From Candidatus Altimarinota bacterium (lineage in GTDB: Bacteria > Patescibacteriota > Gracilibacteria > GCA-2401425 > JAJOLG01), in contig JAJOLG010000023.1 in the NCBI GenBank assembly GCA_021129445.1, positions 1 through 7,168 on the forward strand: 7,168 nucleotides of DNA. The letters run 5' to 3'. Each line of letters opens with the position of its first letter. Within the stretch, counting starts at the first letter, position 1. Below are positions 3 to 7,168 of this stretch, one piece after another. The notes below the pieces were generated by a model that had not been told where the DNA came from, did no database searches, and saw only the letters and a list, made by a program, of their open reading frames with translations. A program made the position numbers and the translations under genes.

Positions 3-2213
3 AAATTTCAAGCATACGCTTACCAATTCTACATTCCCGAAATCACCAACACATCCCAAAAAATCTCCTGAACAATCCCAACTTTCGTCTGAAAATATAT
101 CCCAAAAGACTCACAATTATTTTTTTACTCATCAGAAAATTGAAATGATGAATTTAGAATAAATGATATTCCAAAAAATTATACAAAAATTCATACTTGA
201 TATTCTTTGGGTTGATCAAATACTGATTTTTCAGACACATCAGACAAAATAAAAAACCTTGTTCAACTTGTAGACAATTCAATGCTTCATCATAAAATCC
301 GCCCATCTTCATTTTCCTGATCTTTAGCTTGATGATTTAAATATTCACCAGTTTATCATTTTCCAAAATCTTGAACTTGATATTTAAAATATTTTTACAT
401 TGATTCAAAATGAAATATTATTTGATGAAAACAAAAAGAATTTAAGATTTGAACATGAACAATTATTACTTTCAATAATTTTACAAATGAATCAAATGAA
501 ATAATTACAGATTCAGTTCAACCTTTTATTTATTGAAATTATGAACCAGACGAAGTAATAAATTGATCAATTGTTTGAAATTGAAAAATACAATCAATTG
601 CGATAAAAACAGATTTAAATTGAAATTTTAAATTTCAACCAAGGGAAAAATTAAAAGAATGAGAAACATATACAATAAATTTAAATTGATGACAGAAGAA
701 ATTAAATATTTTAGAAAATAAAAATATTCCAGAAATAATTTCTCATACAAGTTGAAATATTGAAGTATGAAAAAGACCAATATTTTTTTGAAACTGAAAA
801 CCTTGAGAAGATATTAAAATTGAGGTTTTTAACGAAGACCAATATGTAAATTCCACATCAACATGATTTTCTAATATTAAATGTAAAAAATTAACAGCTT
901 CAAATTGATATAAAAAAACTTTTACAGGTACAGATGTTTATTCTTGCTCTGAGTTATGAAACACTTGAAGTATTATTCCATTTTCTACAACATGAATTAC
1001 AATAAAAGACAATTGAAACTGGACATGGCAACTTGATAAAGATTTACAAGAAATTGAAACTGATTCAATAAATATTTATTTTGTTAAAGTTTATTATTCT
1101 GATGATCCAGAGCATTATGATCTGATATCATTTAGATATTTTCCAAAAAAAGAACCTCAAACTTTTGCTGGTGCATTTGCTTCATCGTGAAATTATTTAA
1201 AAATTGATTGAGATTTTGCACAAATTGATTTACCAAAATCTTGAAATTCTGACAGGAAAAACATTTTAGAAGTTTTTGAAAAATCCTGAACTTGAACGAT
1301 AAAAGTGTTTTCTTGAAGTGATTTGAATTACTGAATAATTTTACCACCATTTTCTTGAATAAAATTTTGAACCTGAATTTCATCATCTTGAATTTTAGTG
1401 GAAAGGGGGATGCGGTTGTATACAAAAAGGAATCAGCAAATGGAGTTAATTTTGAGAGATAAAATTTTAAATTTGAAAGAATGAGATAAAATTTTTTCCT
1501 GACCAAAAGAATCAACAATAAAAATTTTTAAACCATTAGAATTTTTTTCCTTTTGAAAAGTAAAAATTTTTCCTGATGAAAAAAATATTTCTGTAAAATT
1601 AAATAAAAATTTAGATTTTAATTTTGAAGATTTTGATAAAAGAAATTTGTGATTTTTTGAGAAAATTTGGAATTATTTTTCTGAGAATTCTTCCTGAGCA
1701 AATAAAAAATATTCTTCAAATCCAATGTGATTAGATAATGATTCAAGATTTACAGAGTACCAAAAAAATATTCAAACAATAATTCCCGACGATAAATATT
1801 CATCAGATAAAAGTTTTAAAATTGCAGATTCTTTAAATTGAAAAACAATTAAATGATGAGATAAAATCTTGATTAAATGAACAGCTTGGCCAAATACACA
1901 AATTAAATTTTCTGTTGATTGAGAAGCAATGTGAACAACTACAACAGATTGATCCTGAACATTTTTATTCAGGTTGCCAAAATGATTTAAGGCAAAATAT
2001 TGAACATTTGATAATAATATAAAAACAATAAAAATAGACAATATTGAACAAAAAAATTTATCAAAAGAATTGATTGTTTCTATTTCCAATAATTCAACTT
2101 GAACATATTTACAAGAAAATGAAATTTTAAACAAAGATAGAAATTTTGAGAAAAAAAATTGATTTATAAATTTTACTGAGAAAATAATGAAATTACCAAT
2201 TTTTGGGTGGTAA
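3..2213 (+). CDS. Large Ig-like-domain protein, probably surface-exposed (5' end outside window)
   Basis: With TGA read as glycine this frame stays open for 736 codons, from the left edge to TAA at 2211-2213. By eye it holds about 63 TGA and 5 GGN glycine codons. The start lies to the left, so any signal peptide is not visible. Three stretches look like bacterial Ig-like beta domains: fragment residues about 166-241 (a DLNGNFKFQP turn, then a GETYTINL strand), about 242-376 (KPGEDIKIEV followed by DNGNWTWQL), and about 606-672 (GGDKILIKGTAWPN, then TTTDGSGTFLFRLP). These resemble the modules that recur in adhesins and other secreted proteins. The middle (about 440-500) is Gly/Ser-rich and unassigned. 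Only two cysteines were noticed, near residue 300. There is no catalytic motif that I recognise. The two SLH genes nearby suggest an envelope role, but that is inference. The reading frame is certain, the function is not. Confidence 0.85.
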
Positions 2214-2244
2214 AAATTAGAACAATTAAAAAATTTTGTAATAA

Positions 2245-2271
2245 AAAAAGCAGGAGAAAATCCTGCTTTTT
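2245..2271. terminator. Bidirectional intrinsic terminator
   Basis: AAAAAGCAGGA (2245-2255) pairs perfectly with TCCTGCTTTTT (2261-2271) around a GAAAA loop, giving a GC-core stem flanked by A and T runs. It lies 31 bases past the stop of the Ig-like gene and 16 bases past the end of the minus-strand gene that stops at 2288. Its symmetry lets it end transcription from both converging sides. Confidence 0.9.
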
Positions 2272-2287
2272 AAATTATTTTTATTTT

Positions 2288-2836
2288 TTATTCCGGGATA
2301 ATTGAGTCAACCGCAGCCCATTCAGAATTTAAATCTTTTGGAACAATAATTGTTAATTTGTCTCAAATTTGTAATTTTAAAAATGTAACTGCTGCTAAAA
2401 TTACCTTGTAAACTCTTCATTCTGCGATAACTTGATATTGTCCACTTTCTAAACTTAAATTTCAAATCAAATGAACTCTGTCAACTGGTTTAATTTGTTT
2501 ATATAAAAATCTTCAATCATTTTTAATTGTCAACTTCAATCAATCTCATTCAACAAGTTTTGATTTTGAAATATAATTTGCAGGGATTGGATAAATTTCT
2601 CAATTTTTATCAACCATATTTTCTCAATCGAAAACTCATTCGATGATTTTTCATTCATCTCACGGTCTTTTGGCGTTTCATAAAGTATCCGCCATTTTTA
2701 CAAGTTCATCATTTGATGAATTTTCTCAGATTTTATTTCAAGAAATTTCTGATAATAAAATTCTTGCATTTTGCATTGCACTTGCTGAAATTTGCAAGGC
2801 TTCCTCGATTTTTTTTATTTTTTTTTCGATTTCCAT
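2288..2836 (-). CDS. Conserved Patescibacteria-type protein of unknown function, N-terminal coiled coil
   Basis: The gene encodes 182 aa in code 25, with 14 TGA and one GGA glycine codons. ATG is at 2834-2836 and TAA at 2288-2290. An in-frame stop three codons further upstream region (TTA at 2852-2854) leaves no earlier ATG. Residues 1-32 are charged and helical (MEIEKKIKKIEEAL...), a likely coiled coil. Residues about 64-182 form a compact, strand-rich domain with conserved-looking blocks: EGVFDGENMV, YPIPANYISKSKLVEGD, GRFLYKQIKPVDR, and a C-terminal VPKDLNSEWAAVDSII. From memory, proteins with the YPVPANYASKSKLVEGD and YKQI signatures are common in CPR genomes and have no assigned function. 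I cannot verify this here. There is no signal peptide or membrane segment, so it is probably cytoplasmic. It lies 104 bases downstream of the M23-SLH gene on the same strand and could share its transcript. No Shine-Dalgarno motif precedes the ATG. Confidence 0.88.
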
Positions 2837-2899
2837 TTTTTTGTTTTTATTTTATTTTTTTTATTATATTTCTTTTTCTTCAAAAAAAAATTATTTTCT

Positions 2900-2919
2900 C
2901 TTGAAAATTTTTTTCAAAG
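2900..2919 (-). terminator. Weak hairpin between the two minus-strand genes
   Basis: TTGAAAA (2901-2907) and TTTTCAA (2911-2917) form a 7-bp, A/T-dominated stem with a 3-base loop. On the minus strand it lies just after the stop of the M23-SLH gene, and a run of T follows about 10 bases later. The low GC and the offset T run make it a poor terminator. It may only attenuate read-through into the downstream gene, or be chance in such A/T-rich DNA. Confidence 0.22.
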
Positions 2920-2940
2920 ATTTTTTTATATTGAAATTTT

Positions 2941-4926
2941 TTATTTTCCTAAAAATTTTATCAAGTTATACAAACTTTCTGCCACTTCTGCTCTTGAAAC
3001 TCATTTTCATGGTTCAAAATTTTCTCAATCAACTTTTATCAAATTTGTATCTTTCACAAATCAAATATATGGTCAAAACCAAGAATCTTTTGGGACATCT
3101 GCAAATGGGTTTTCAGATGGCATTGGTGGGTTGATTTCTGCTGATAAAAGCAAAATTTTGTAATATTCTGATCTATTCACAGATTTTGAAGGTTTAAATG
3201 TTCAATCTGAATATCATTTCACAATTCATTTTTGCATCGCTGCTCAGACAAAAGGTGAGTACCATGCATCATTTACAGTATCTTTAAAATTCACATCTTT
3301 TTTATTTTCTGTTGAAATTTTCAATCAAGCGAAAATCATTTTTATTGCTTCAACTCTTGAAACGGTTTTTTCTGGTTTAAAACTTCAATCGGAATATCAT
3401 CAAATTACTCAGTTTTCTTTTAAATATTTTATTGCTTCATAATTTTTATTTTCTGGTAAAACATCAGTAAAAATTGGTTTTTCTTCAATTTTTTCTTCTA
3501 TTTTAGCTGATTCATGCAAATTTTCTTCAAGTTTTTCAGTTTGTGGAATTTCTTTTTTAACTTCTTGTTTTATAACTTTTTCAGTTTCTTCTTTTTTAAT
3601 TTTAATTGTTCAAGTTGAACTTGTTTTTTCTGTATTTTCAGTTGTTTTTCAAGTTTCAGTTTTTTCTGATGTTCAATGCAAATTTTCCGAGTCAGATTCT
3701 AAACTTGCAATATTTTCTTCTTTTTTAATCACAACCTTTTCAGCTTCTTTTGAGATTATTTTTTTAGAAAATTTTTCTTTTCAATTTGTAATTTCAAAAG
3801 TAAATTCTTCCGCTTGTGGATTTTTTATTGAAATTTCAGCGATTCAATTTTTGAATTTTAAAATTTTAGAAAATTTTGCAGTGTTTGAAGTTGAAGAAAT
3901 TTTTATTTCAGAAGTTGGTTTAAAATTTTTAATTGTTTTGTTTTTTTCATCTTTTGCAATAATTTTTAATTTTAATTCTTTTCAAACTTCAAATTCTTCT
4001 TTTCATAAAATTGAAAATTTAATTTCACTTTTTTTAACTTCATCTTTTTTTACGATATTTTCAGTTTTTACTGAAATATTTTTATTATTAAAATTTTCAT
4101 CAATCCATTTTAATGGGTTTATTGTGTATTTTATCGCATTTTCTTTTCAAAGTCATTCTTTAACAGCGGTAAAAAAATTTAAATTTGCTCAATATACTTC
4201 TTTTGCAGTAAATGGCCAATATGGGTGCCGTGGAGCATCTTTTTTATCAATTTGAAAGTGTAAATGTGGAGTTGTTGAAGTTCAAGAATTTCAAGTTTTT
4301 CAAATAATTTGTCATTTTTTCACAATTTGTCATACTTTTACATCAATTTGTGAAAGGTGACTGTAAGAAACATAATAATTTGTTTTTTTATTTGGATTTC
4401 AATATTCTGGAACATTTCTCAATTCCAAAACAATATGTTTTCAAAATCATGAGTTTGAATTTATGATTTTGATGATTTTTCAATTTGAAATTGCTCTTAT
4501 TGGTGTTCAAACAGGGACTCTGATGTCAACTGCAGGATGTGAACCTTTTCATTCTTCTCTGTTTTGAATGTCATAATTTCATAAATAAACAACAGAATAA
4601 GTTAGTTTTGCTTGTTTTTCTTTTGTTTCTCACTTTATTTCATCAGGGGTTTTTCATCAAACCGCAAGTGAGTATTTTGAAATATTTACAAGATTTTCTT
4701 GTGAAATTTCAGAAAACTTGGTTGTTTTGTTATTTCATCACCAAGTAAACCAATTTGGAACTTTTTCAATTGGATAGACTGCTCAATCAAATTTTTCTGG
4801 AATTTGTAAAATACTTGCGCGGAACCACTCAGTATTTCAAAAAATTGAAACCAGGGAGATTCAACAAATCATTACTAATCATAGAAATAAATCTTTGTGC
4901 TCGTTGAGAATTTTTTTTACACTCAT
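2941..4926 (-). CDS. Membrane-anchored M23 metallopeptidase with three SLH repeats
   Basis: The gene encodes 661 aa in code 25, with about 45 TGA and two GGN glycine codons. ATG is at 4924-4926 and TAA at 2941-2943. Residues 12-30 are a hydrophobic segment (LFLGLVMICGISLVSIFG), probably a signal anchor. Residues about 125-225 are an M23/LytM peptidase domain. The zinc and catalytic residues are visible: H130 and D134 in HPAVD, H190 in YSHL, and H221/H223 in HLHF, plus VGTP and the [17 protein letters not shown] loop. This family cleaves peptidoglycan cross-bridges outside the membrane. An Ig-like beta segment spans about 300-400, then a Glu/Lys/Thr-rich linker about 403-482. Three SLH repeats follow at about 483-540, 543-600 and 608-661, two with GYSDG.FKP and all with a V.R.E motif. 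SLH repeats typically hold proteins on cell-wall polymer. The likely role is a wall-tethered hydrolase for growth, division or attack on another cell. Residue 233 is encoded by CGG, see findings. No Shine-Dalgarno motif is seen. Confidence 0.93.
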
Positions 4927-5189
4927 AATTTTTTTATTATTTTTGTTTTTGTTTTTGATTTTTTTAAATCAGAAAATTTTAACTAAAAAAAAAATTTTTT
5001 CATTAAAAAAAAATTTACAAGATATTAAAAATATTTTTTTTAGCTAAAATTTTTTTTAAAAATAGTTTTTTTCGTCTTAAAATTAAGATTTTTAAAAAAA
5101 ATTATTTTTTTTAAATTTTTTACTTGATTTATTAAAAAAACCTCTTATCTTTTTTCGGCATTTTAATTTAATGTAATTTTAAATCTTGA
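4927..5189. other. A/T-tract intergenic region between divergent transcription units
   Basis: These 263 bases separate the minus-strand M23-SLH gene from the tRNA genes and contain no credible gene. They consist mostly of alternating A and T homopolymer runs of 5-10 bases, with a small inverted repeat TCTTAAAATTAAGA at 5075-5088. Promoters for both directions should lie here, but the composition makes -10-like hexamers ubiquitous. Long A tracts imply intrinsically curved or stiff DNA. Confidence 0.7.
5124..5151 (+). promoter_or_regulatory. Candidate sigma-70-type promoter for the tRNA-L25 unit
   Basis: TTGATT (5124-5129) and TATCTT (5146-5151) are separated by 16 bases and lie about 39 bases before the tRNA-Val gene. 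Both hexamers match the consensus only partly, and the A/T-rich background makes such pairs frequent, so this is a weak suggestion based mainly on location. Confidence 0.3.
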
Positions 5190-5266
5190 GGGCGTATAGC
5201 TCAGTTGGCTAGAGCAACTGGTTTACACCCAGTAGGTCACGGGTTCGAGTCCCTTTACGCCCACCA
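5190..5266 (+). tRNA. tRNA-Val(TAC)
   Basis: A complete 77-nt cloverleaf is visible. The acceptor stem GGGCGTA pairs with TACGCCC, the discriminator is A and the CCA end is encoded (5264-5266). The D arm contains AGCTCAGTTGGCTAGAGC. The anticodon stem ACTGG/CCAGT encloses the loop TTTACAC with anticodon TAC. The T arm contains GGGTTCGAGTCCC. It reads GTN valine codons, chiefly GTA and GTG. tRNA-Leu follows after 21 bases, so the two are probably cut from one precursor. Confidence 0.97.
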
Positions 5267-5287
5267 TTTAAAATTTAAATTATAATT

Positions 5288-5372
5288 GCCGAAATGGCGG
5301 AATTGGTAGACGCGCTCGACTCAAAATCGAGTTCCTTCGGGAGTGAGGGTTCAAGTCCCTCTTTCGGTACCA
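5288..5372 (+). tRNA. tRNA-Leu(CAA)
   Basis: This is an 85-nt class II tRNA. The acceptor stem GCCGAAA pairs with TTTCGGT (first pair G-U), followed by discriminator A and an encoded CCA (5370-5372). The anticodon stem CTCGA/TCGAG encloses the loop CTCAAAA with anticodon CAA, which reads the leucine codon TTG. The long variable arm TTCCTTCGGGAGT, with its TTCG tetraloop, is typical of tRNA-Leu. The T arm contains GAGGGTTCAAGTCCCTC. It lies between tRNA-Val and the L25 gene on the same strand. Confidence 0.97.
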
Positions 5373-5385
5373 ATTCAGAAATATC

Positions 5386-5406
5386 TTTGGTAAAAACTTT
5401 ACCGAA
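5386..5406 (+). other. Short hairpin between tRNA-Leu and L25
   Basis: GGTAAA (5389-5394) pairs with TTTACC (5398-5403) around a 3-base loop, and the stem extends outward by one G-T and two A-T pairs. No T run follows, so it is not a typical terminator. It may mark processing between the tRNA and the L25 mRNA, or shape the L25 leader. Confidence 0.4.
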
Positions 5407-5433
5407 ATTAAGAGAGGTGTCATTGGTATAAAA

Positions 5434-5460
5434 ATGAAAAATAAAATAGATTATGTCTAA
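5434..5460 (+). other. Possible 8-codon leader ORF overlapping the L25 start
   Basis: ATG at 5434 opens a frame encoding MKNKIDYV, ending at TAA 5458-5460, so it overlaps the first codons of the L25 gene at 5453. A purine-rich GAGAGGTG (5412-5419), the best Shine-Dalgarno-like sequence seen in the window, lies 14 bases before this ATG and 33 bases before the L25 ATG. It could be a translational-coupling leader, or a chance frame. No protein-level support is visible. Confidence 0.25.
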
Positions 5461-6025
5461 AATTAAACTTGAAGCTAAAAAAAGAGATCTATCAATAAAA
5501 GCTAAAGATTTATTAAAATCATCAAGACTTCCTTGAATCGTTTATTGACCAAAATCAGAACCGATTTTAGTTGATATGGATTATCAAGAGTTTAGAAAAA
5601 CTTTTTTAAAAGTTAAAAAATGAACAATTTTTACTTTGTCAATTGATTGAAAAGATATTGATGTTTTAGTAAAAGATTATATTTTGGATGATTTATATGA
5701 TACTTTAAAACATATTGATTTTGTTCAAATTGATGAAAAATCTACTGTGAAAGCAGAGGTTATCCTTGAAACAGAATGAGTTTCAGAAGCAGTTAAGATT
5801 TGATGAGTTTTAAGACAAGAAATGACTTCATTAAAAGTTAAATGTTTACCAAAAGATTTACCAGCATCTATTAAAGTTGATATTTCAAAATTAGAGCATT
5901 TTTCTTCAATTGTAAAAGTGTCTGATTTAGAACTTCCAGAATGAATTTCAGTTCTAGTTCCAGATACATTAATTGTTGCATCTGTAATTGTTCCAAGATC
6001 TGTTGCAGCAGCTACAAATTCTTAA
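5453..6025 (+). CDS. rplY: 50S ribosomal protein L25 (long TL5/CTC form)
   Basis: The gene encodes 190 aa in code 25. L25 binds 5S rRNA in the large ribosomal subunit. The N-terminal half begins with the family pattern MSKIKLEAKKRDLS followed by RLPGIVYGP, in which both glycines are TGA. The rest of that domain (to about residue 90) includes a strand ending FTLSIDGKDIDVLVKDY and the DTLKHIDFVQID block. Residues about 95-185 are the extra beta-rich CTC/TL5 domain (KAEVILETEGVSEAVKIGGVLRQ, LPASIKVDISKLE, ISVLVPDTLIVASVIVP). The length suits the long form rather than the roughly 95-aa enterobacterial form. All eight glycines I can find are encoded by TGA and none by GGN. TAG at 5447-5449 is in frame upstream, so ATG 5453 is the only good start. 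The gene follows two tRNA genes and probably shares their transcript. Confidence 0.96.
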
Positions 6026-6046
6026 TTAAAATAAAAAAATAAATTT

Positions 6047-6073
6047 CCCAATTCTTTGAATTGGGATTTTTTT
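6047..6073 (+). terminator. Intrinsic terminator after L25
   Basis: CCCAATTC (6047-6054) pairs perfectly with GAATTGGG (6058-6065) around a TTT loop, followed by A and seven T. It begins 21 bases past the L25 stop codon and closes the tRNA-L25 unit. Confidence 0.92.
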
Positions 6074-6111
6074 GTTTTATTGTTTTTGGTTGTTATTTTA
6101 AGTATTATTTT

Positions 6112-6212
6112 TGTCATTCTGAGCAACGCGAAGAATCTTTTATTTCATATTTTATTTTTCAAATCATTCCTGTTTCAATAGATCCTTCTTCGTTTCACTC
6201 CTCAGGATGATA
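6112..6212. repeat. REP-like imperfect inverted repeat
   Basis: The left arm (about 6112-6138) begins TGTCATTCTGAG and ends CGAAGAATCT. The right arm (about 6180-6212) carries AGATCCTTCTTCG and ends CTCAGGATGATA, the approximate reverse complement of the left. The arms are noticeably richer in G and C than the DNA around them and enclose about 40 A/T-rich bases. From memory, GTCATTCTGAG/CTCAGGATGAC palindromes containing CGAAGAATCT are widespread extragenic repeats in many bacteria, including CPR lineages. This copy has mismatches, so it may be an old one. Confidence 0.72.
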
Positions 6213-6229
6213 AAAAATTAAAAATTTTT

Positions 6230-6260
6230 TTGCCATATCTAAAAAAATTTTTTTTATTTA
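6230..6260 (+). promoter_or_regulatory. Weak promoter candidate for the second SLH gene
   Basis: TTGCCA (6230-6235) is close to a -35 consensus. T/A-rich hexamers such as TTTTAT (6252-6257) lie about 16 bases further on, and the SLH gene ATG is at 6271. The upstream terminator and repeat imply that a promoter must be near. The exact -10 cannot be chosen in this composition. Confidence 0.25.
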
Positions 6261-6270
6261 GAAAAAACAA

Positions 6271-7168
6271 ATGAAAAAAAATAAAAATTTTTTAAAGGCA
6301 AAAAAATTTTTTTTTAAAATAAAATTTTTTAGAAATTTATTTTTTGTATTTTTATTATTTTTTATTTTTTCAGAAAATTCTTTTTCTGAGTGAAAAGTTG
6401 TTCAAAATATTTCAGAGGCTGAAAAAAATATTGAAAAATGAATTTTGCCATTTTGAGATGTTTCAAAAGATAATCCAGCAAAAGATGCAATTTTGGAACT
6501 TTATAGGAGAAATATTATTACTTGATATAAAGATCAAACTTTTAGGCCGGATGCAAAAATTTCAAGGGCTGAATTTGTAAAAATTGTTTTATGAGCAACA
6601 AATTGTACGGATTGTACAAGGCCAACCGAGGAAATTAAACAAAAATTTATTAACAAATCTTTCAGAGATGTTGAGGTTTGGGACTGGTTTCATTATTGTG
6701 TTTCGATTTGAAAGGATCAAAAAATTATTACTTGATATTTATCTGATTGACTTTTTAGACCGCATAAAAATATTTCAAGAGGTGAGGCGGTTGCAATTTT
6801 ATTGAGAAAAGTCGGTGTAAAAGTTGAAAAATATAATTGAGAATTTCATGATGTGAAAGATTATCATTGGTTTAAAGATTATGTAAAAACCGCAGTTGAT
6901 ATTTGACTGATTACAGAAAAAGATTGATATGTAAATCCTTTGGAGTATATTACAAGATGAGAATTTGCAATGATTACTTCAAATTTGTTATCAATTTATG
7001 ATTGTAGAGATAAAGATTTAGATAAAAATTGAATTCGTGATTTTTTAGAAATGGAAGATGGTATTTGACCTTGAAAATGGGGAGATGTTTTTTCTGGTAA
7101 AGAAGATGATTTTTTACAAAATTTTGCTGATTTTAATCAAATTCAGAATCAAATAAACAACCTAAACA
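6271..7168 (+). CDS. Secreted SLH-domain protein with calcium-loop-like motif (3' end outside window)
   Basis: The first 299 codons are visible in code 25, with about 15 TGA and 5 GGN glycines. TAG at 6259-6261 is in frame upstream, so ATG 6271 is the start. Residues 1-40 form a signal peptide: a Lys-rich start, a Phe/Leu hydrophobic core (about 19-33), then SENSFSEG as a possible cleavage zone. SLH repeat 1 is about 61-112 (FGDV, ITGYKDQTFRPD, ISRAEFVKIV). Repeat 2 is about 130-186 (FRDV, ITGYLSDGLFRP, ISRGEAVAIL). Repeat 3 is about 192-242 (FHDV, LITEKDGYVNP, ITRGEFAMI). These usually bind secondary wall polymer. Residues about 245-260 (CRDKDLDKNGIRDFLE) resemble a calcium-binding thrombospondin type 3 loop. 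The SLH block is at the N-terminus, so the functional domain probably lies beyond the window. Cysteines at 112, 115, 143 and 245 could form disulphides. No Shine-Dalgarno motif is seen. Confidence 0.92.

Follow-up and report, generated by a model that had tools for sequence, protein, structure and literature searches.

UGA as a glycine codon, and CGG apparently as a tryptophan codon, in a Patescibacteria genome: most likely a second origin of the UGA recoding

The stretch of DNA considered here (the window) is 7,168 nucleotides long and comprises bases 1-7168 of contig C18 in an assembly of 672,893 bases in 77 contigs, obtained from a Candidatus Altimarinota bacterium (GCA_021129445.1). At issue is the genetic code of this genome, above all the meaning of the codon UGA (TGA in the DNA), which is a stop in the standard code. 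Read with translation table 25, in which UGA is glycine, the window holds five long protein genes, distributed over both strands, and two tRNA genes. These, and one codon to which the argument returns, are as follows.

3..2213, plus strand: gene of 736 codons cut off by the left edge; 63 in-frame TGA; large, probably extracellular protein with weak immunoglobulin-like matches (Big_13, Big_6)
2288..2836, minus strand: protein of 182 amino acids; 14 in-frame TGA; no Pfam or NCBIfam match
2941..4926, minus strand: protein of 661 amino acids with an M23 peptidase domain and three SLH repeats; 45 in-frame TGA; orthologue in the standard-code genome G001
4228..4230, minus strand: CGG within the M23-SLH gene (its codon 233); faces tryptophan in the G001 orthologue
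5190..5266, plus strand: tRNA-Val (anticodon TAC)
5288..5372, plus strand: tRNA-Leu (anticodon CAA)
5453..6025, plus strand: ribosomal protein bL25, CTC/TL5 type, 190 amino acids; 8 in-frame TGA; TIGR00731 at 137.6 bits (cut-off 73.1)
6271..7167, plus strand: secreted protein, cut off by the right edge, that has three SLH repeats; 15 in-frame TGA

Under table 11, no open reading frame in the window is longer than 163 amino acids, and none lies in the five gene frames. The original prediction, made from the letters alone, held that the five genes are intact only if TGA is a sense codon, and put the number of in-frame TGA codons at about 145. Table 25 does deliver five genes where table 11 delivers none in those frames, and counting gives exactly 145 (63, 14, 45, 8 and 15, in the order above), compared with 13 GGN codons. 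All complete genes in the window have TAA as their stop. Each of the five coding frames is clear of TAA and TAG before the end of its gene; in the other five frames, these codons number 3-43, and the openness of the coding frames is therefore not a matter of chance.

The amino acid inserted at UGA can be read in several ways, and all of them agree with the prediction that it is glycine, not tryptophan. The first is the fit of the window's proteins to their family profiles. Here, every L25, SLH and M23 domain scores higher if TGA is translated as glycine than if it is translated as tryptophan. The Pfam scores are 104.4 versus 34.3 for SLH, 81.5 versus 41.2 for M23, 57.8 versus 44.7 for L25, 76.2 versus 62.0 for the TL5 C-terminal domain, and 95.6 versus 48.4 for the second SLH protein.

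The second way makes no assumption about the codon. Here, TGA is masked, and the ribosomal proteins, RpoB and RpoC of the genome are aligned to those of standard-code relatives, a column being called conserved at 70% or more. This alignment contains 386 TGA codons. At conserved columns, the residue facing TGA is glycine 264 times and alanine 9 times, with every other residue appearing at most 3 times; glycine is ahead of the next residue by 1399 log-likelihood units. A wider sample, built from non-overlapping genes, replaced an all-frames BLAST of TGA contexts that was polluted by antisense open reading frames; in it, glycine faces TGA 586 times and alanine 47 times. Within the window itself, the M23-SLH gene can be set against its orthologue in G001, where glycine faces 16 of the 26 aligned TGA codons and tryptophan faces none.

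The well-known bacterial change of UGA is, of course, the one seen in Mycoplasma-like code 4, where UGA becomes tryptophan (PMC8629427). One might also imagine that UGA is read through or suppressed, instead of being reassigned. The probability that either holds here is close to negligible. Translation of TGA as tryptophan lowers the domain scores sharply. Further, tryptophan does not rank among the leading consensus residues at the conserved TGA columns of the masked alignment, whose tryptophan columns carry TGG. Read-through, in turn, is not workable because UGA makes up about 6% of all codons in a sample of 46,742 codons taken from ten contigs of the genome. In the same sample, TGA accounts for 2949 of the 3437 glycine codons (about 86%), with GGN supplying 488. 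UGA encodes glycine in this genome, beyond reasonable doubt. The genome is like those of Mycoplasma and Spiroplasma in being AT-rich and in having turned the UGA stop into a sense codon; unlike code 4, the sense acquired is glycine.

Table 25 as the whole code of this genome, as originally proposed, falls short, since CGG occupies positions of conserved tryptophan, one of them inside the window. CGG is a rare codon (29 in the ten-contig sample, about 6 per 10,000). In leucyl-tRNA synthetase (LeuRS), the segment RQRY[CGG]GEPIP aligns to RQRYWGTPIP in the T. thermophilus enzyme, whose structure is solved. In LigA, KSPR[CGG]AVAYKFP aligns to APRWAVAFKFP of a solved ligase. In both, CGG faces tryptophan, as it does at codon 233 of the M23-SLH gene, where DAP[CGG]HPYWPF faces TAPWSPYWPF of G001. 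A thrombospondin-type-3-like protein encoded on the window's contig contains PKE[CGG]ADCDKDG, with sister repeats that have PKEW written with TGG, and a lamin-tail protein has two CGG sites at tryptophan. Reading CGG as tryptophan adds 7 bits to the score of the LeuRS domain and 6.5 bits to that of the lamin-tail domain, and makes the LigA adenylation domain appear in the Pfam match table. The loci tied to this reading are L247:11340-13829, L251:6367-7641 (minus strand), L244:4680-6356, L250:12848-13945, and 4228-4230 in the window.

From these alignments, it seems that CGG is read as tryptophan in this genome. CGA seems to stay arginine. Judged by eye, its contexts (few sites) fit arginine in Mfd (HN[CGA]VE), in RecG (FI[CGA]EEIKKGRQ) and in Mur ligases, and the residue of E. 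coli Mfd aligned to CGA is aspartate, not tryptophan. A tRNA with anticodon CCG lies on contig C5 at 3026-3099. Under the tRNA identity rules given in PMC8629427, its A1-U72 pair and its G73 are as in tRNA-Trp.

Tryptophan has been found at CGG before. Codetta reported it for Anaerococcus, for an RFN20 clade, for Absconditabacteria (where CGA and CGG are both reported as tryptophan) and for some Gracilibacteria (PMC8629427). The present genome is like these cases in having rare CGG codons at conserved tryptophans, a low GC content, and a tRNA with a CCG anticodon. It is unlike them in being another lineage with UGA as glycine, in a CGA that is apparently arginine, and in a tRNA that keeps A20.

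UGA as glycine, too, has been established before, in both Absconditabacteria and Gracilibacteria (by sources that PMC8629427 cites). According to a 2026 review, the two groups belong to GTDB JAEDAM01, and the recoding is restricted to JAEDAM01 and goes back to the last common ancestor of that clade (PMC13293708). No report of UGA as glycine outside JAEDAM01 was found in the open-access literature searched. The genome could, of course, be a divergent member of JAEDAM01 whose code was inherited from the clade ancestor; it gives UGA the same meaning, and its reading of CGG has likewise been reported in Absconditabacteria and in some Gracilibacteria.

This inheritance can be weighed by asking where the genome falls among its relatives. 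Sixty relatives were compared, of which a single one, G001, belongs to the same order. G001 has a release factor 1 (RF1) gene without in-frame TGA, a release factor 2 (RF2), and no sense TGA at aligned conserved positions; no tRNA-Gly(UCA) was found in it. In the UGA-recoded genomes of f12 and f15 that were searched, the RF1 gene contains in-frame TGA, and each genome has one release factor only. A tRNA-Gly(UCA) is present in most genomes of f12, f15, f22 and f24, and these four families are presumably JAEDAM01, to judge from their shared grouping, this tRNA, and (in f12 and f15) the single release factor.

The trees place the genome elsewhere. In the ribosomal-protein tree (3089 columns, with TGA read as glycine in recoded genomes), it is joined to G001 with support of 99.8/100, and f12 and f15 form one group in another part of the tree (99.6/99). 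With TGA masked, the rpoB/rpoC tree groups the genome (G000), G001 and the long-branched G046 (0.998), and the tree from the combined set groups the genome with G001 (1.0). In the masked trees, the genome lies among standard-code families, apart from the recoded f12, f15, f22 and f24. The families around it, like G001, its nearest relative in the comparison, have the standard code and RF2. A tree in which all UGA-glycine genomes are forced together as one clade is worse by 103 log-likelihood units (approximately unbiased test, p = 0.003). The forced clade has p = 0.015 under SR4 four-state recoding, which takes away most of the effect of composition, and p of about 0.0001 under the LG+C10 ten-profile mixture (with fewer replicates than recommended). 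The tRNA-Gly(TCC) of the genome is nearly identical to that of G001, differing at only a few bases.

The placement runs against the obvious artefact because shared AT-richness (GC is about 25% in the genome and about 23% in some f15 genomes) would pull the genome towards the known clade, and yet it is placed elsewhere. Descent of its code from the JAEDAM01 ancestor is, then, quite unlikely: two marker sets put the genome with standard-code genomes, a single UGA-glycine clade is rejected under three models, and CGA looks like arginine here, in contrast to Absconditabacteria. Membership in the established code-25 group, to which the original prediction pointed, is not borne out. UGA as glycine most likely arose independently in this lineage, as a second origin.

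We therefore favour, with a probability of roughly 0.85, a reading in which UGA is a full sense codon and the main glycine codon, UAA and UAG are the stops, the recoding was acquired independently of JAEDAM01, and a change of CGG to tryptophan goes alongside it. Several points weigh against this. One genome represents the lineage, and its assembly is fragmented. No tRNA-Gly(UCA) was found in the assembly, although most genomes of f12, f15, f22 and f24 have one; pattern searches, including an intron-tolerant search on the 3' half of the glycine acceptor, returned only the TCC glycine isoacceptor. Searches of the assembly for RF1, RF2 and the RF-1 domain found neither prfA nor prfB. The tRNA with anticodon CCG also has A20, an arginine identity element; with tryptophan and arginine identity elements mixed in one molecule, its sequence does not settle how it is charged.

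The missing tRNA-Gly(UCA) and RF2 carry no weight, however, because the indispensable tRNA-Met, tRNA-Glu and RF1 are equally missing. The stated completeness of the assembly is 94.8%, yet these genes and several isoacceptors are not among its 672,893 bases; genomes of the class mostly measure 0.8-1.7 Mb. The figure of 94.8% is probably too high.

The assembly does contain a second tRNA with anticodon CCA (C8:1944-2016; L012:1501-1576), which has C1-G72, A73 and G37; the other tRNA-Trp, on contig C4, has G73. The tRNA on C8 was considered as a reader of UGA and set aside, as its C1-G72 and A73 are at odds with the identity rules for glycine that PMC8629427 quotes.

An independent acquisition must also be weighed against a single ancient one, in which UGA became glycine once for the whole class and reverted in G001, f16, f11 and many other families. 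The distribution of tRNA-Gly(UCA) gives this history some footing. A search spanning 288 genomes of the class found convincing matches in f12, f15, f22 and f24 and, outside the known clade, in a single genome, G012 (f13). The tRNA-Gly(UCA) of G012 is, however, clearly unlike the f12 and f15 types in sequence, and a single ancient origin requires many separate reversions, with RF2 regained and sense UGA purged. Such a history is very unlikely.

The probable independent origin of the recoding gains a possible companion in G012, where the loci of interest are these.

L159:1448-1524: tRNA-Gly(UCA)
L257:14311-15456, minus strand: pilT, with five TGA
L253:738-6215, minus strand: further locus with in-frame TGA
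L255:289-4359, plus strand: further locus with in-frame TGA
L101:16651-19500, minus strand: further locus with in-frame TGA
L271:3-7268, minus strand: further locus with in-frame TGA

The RF2 of G012 (L262) is intact, with its SPF and GGQ motifs present. Its core genes stop at UAA or UAG, and no TGA occurs in its aligned ribosomal and polymerase genes. One of the five TGA codons in pilT stands at the first glycine of the Walker A motif (VT[TGA]PTGSGKST). Genes for very large surface proteins contain between 7 and 19 TGA each, in frames that are free of TAA and TAG for 950 to 2422 codons. Compared with paralogues and homologues, the TGA sites of G012 face glycine at 15 of 36 positions and serine, the next residue, at 4, a count in which some of the open reading frames listed may be non-coding.

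Contamination was considered as the source of these sense codons. It is unlikely because pilT, with its five TGA, shares contig C43 with a TGA-free rpoB. A TGA-bearing surface gene lies on contig C33, which is that of the ribosomal operon.

To judge from these genes, G012 is perhaps a nascent reassignment, in which the tRNA would have arrived, RF2 would still be present, and UGA would have sense in some genes only. It is fairly likely that the change of UGA to glycine arose at least two times in the class, and that G001, G012 and the window genome stand side by side as stages of a natural intermediate series. In this series, G001 has the standard code, G012 would use UGA sparsely as glycine in pilus and surface genes, with a host-encoded tRNA-Gly(UCA) beside its intact RF2, and the window genome has UGA dominant, together with CGG as tryptophan.

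The recoding might have proceeded as follows. In a very AT-rich genome, UGA would have ceased to serve as a stop. The vacated codon may have been captured by a tRNA-Gly that had arisen by duplication and had the anticodon UCA, with glycyl-tRNA synthetase charging it, and RF2 would then have been lost. UGA could subsequently have become the dominant glycine codon under AT pressure, which favours it because UGA has a single G or C, fewer than any other glycine codon. CGG, in turn, is presumably read by the CCG tRNA of contig C5, charged by tryptophanyl-tRNA synthetase.

The outcome is like code 25 of Absconditabacteria (SR1) and Gracilibacteria (BD1-5) in having UGA as glycine, UAA and UAG as stops, and an AT-rich Patescibacteria (candidate phyla radiation, CPR) genome as its setting. 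It differs from the code 25 of JAEDAM01 in that the genome is phylogenetically separate and stands beside standard-code relatives; the share of UGA among the sampled glycine codons (about 86%) is a further difference. What is new is the placement, most likely a second independent origin of UGA as glycine, accompanied by CGG as tryptophan. A second origin is a replicate of a rare event, one that can be compared with a sister genome of standard code, and it would couple UGA as glycine once again to a change of CGG to tryptophan in a very AT-rich genome. With G012, the order of the steps (UGA vacated, tRNA-Gly(UCA) gained, sense UGA spreading, RF2 lost) becomes directly testable. At a practical level, annotation of such genomes goes wrong under table 11, and under table 25 it also goes wrong at any CGG.

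Two smaller observations remain. The gene at 3..2213 of the window contains a single CGG, at 1413-1415. Across f12, f15, f22 and f24, the number of in-frame TGA codons in rpoB peaks in the AT-rich f15 genomes (more than 60 in G033, with a GC content of 0.24), and f22 and f24 have the smallest numbers (a few each in G065 and G140, with GC contents of about 0.44-0.45). The trend is what one would expect if UGA, with the lowest G/C count of the glycine codons, were favoured by AT pressure.

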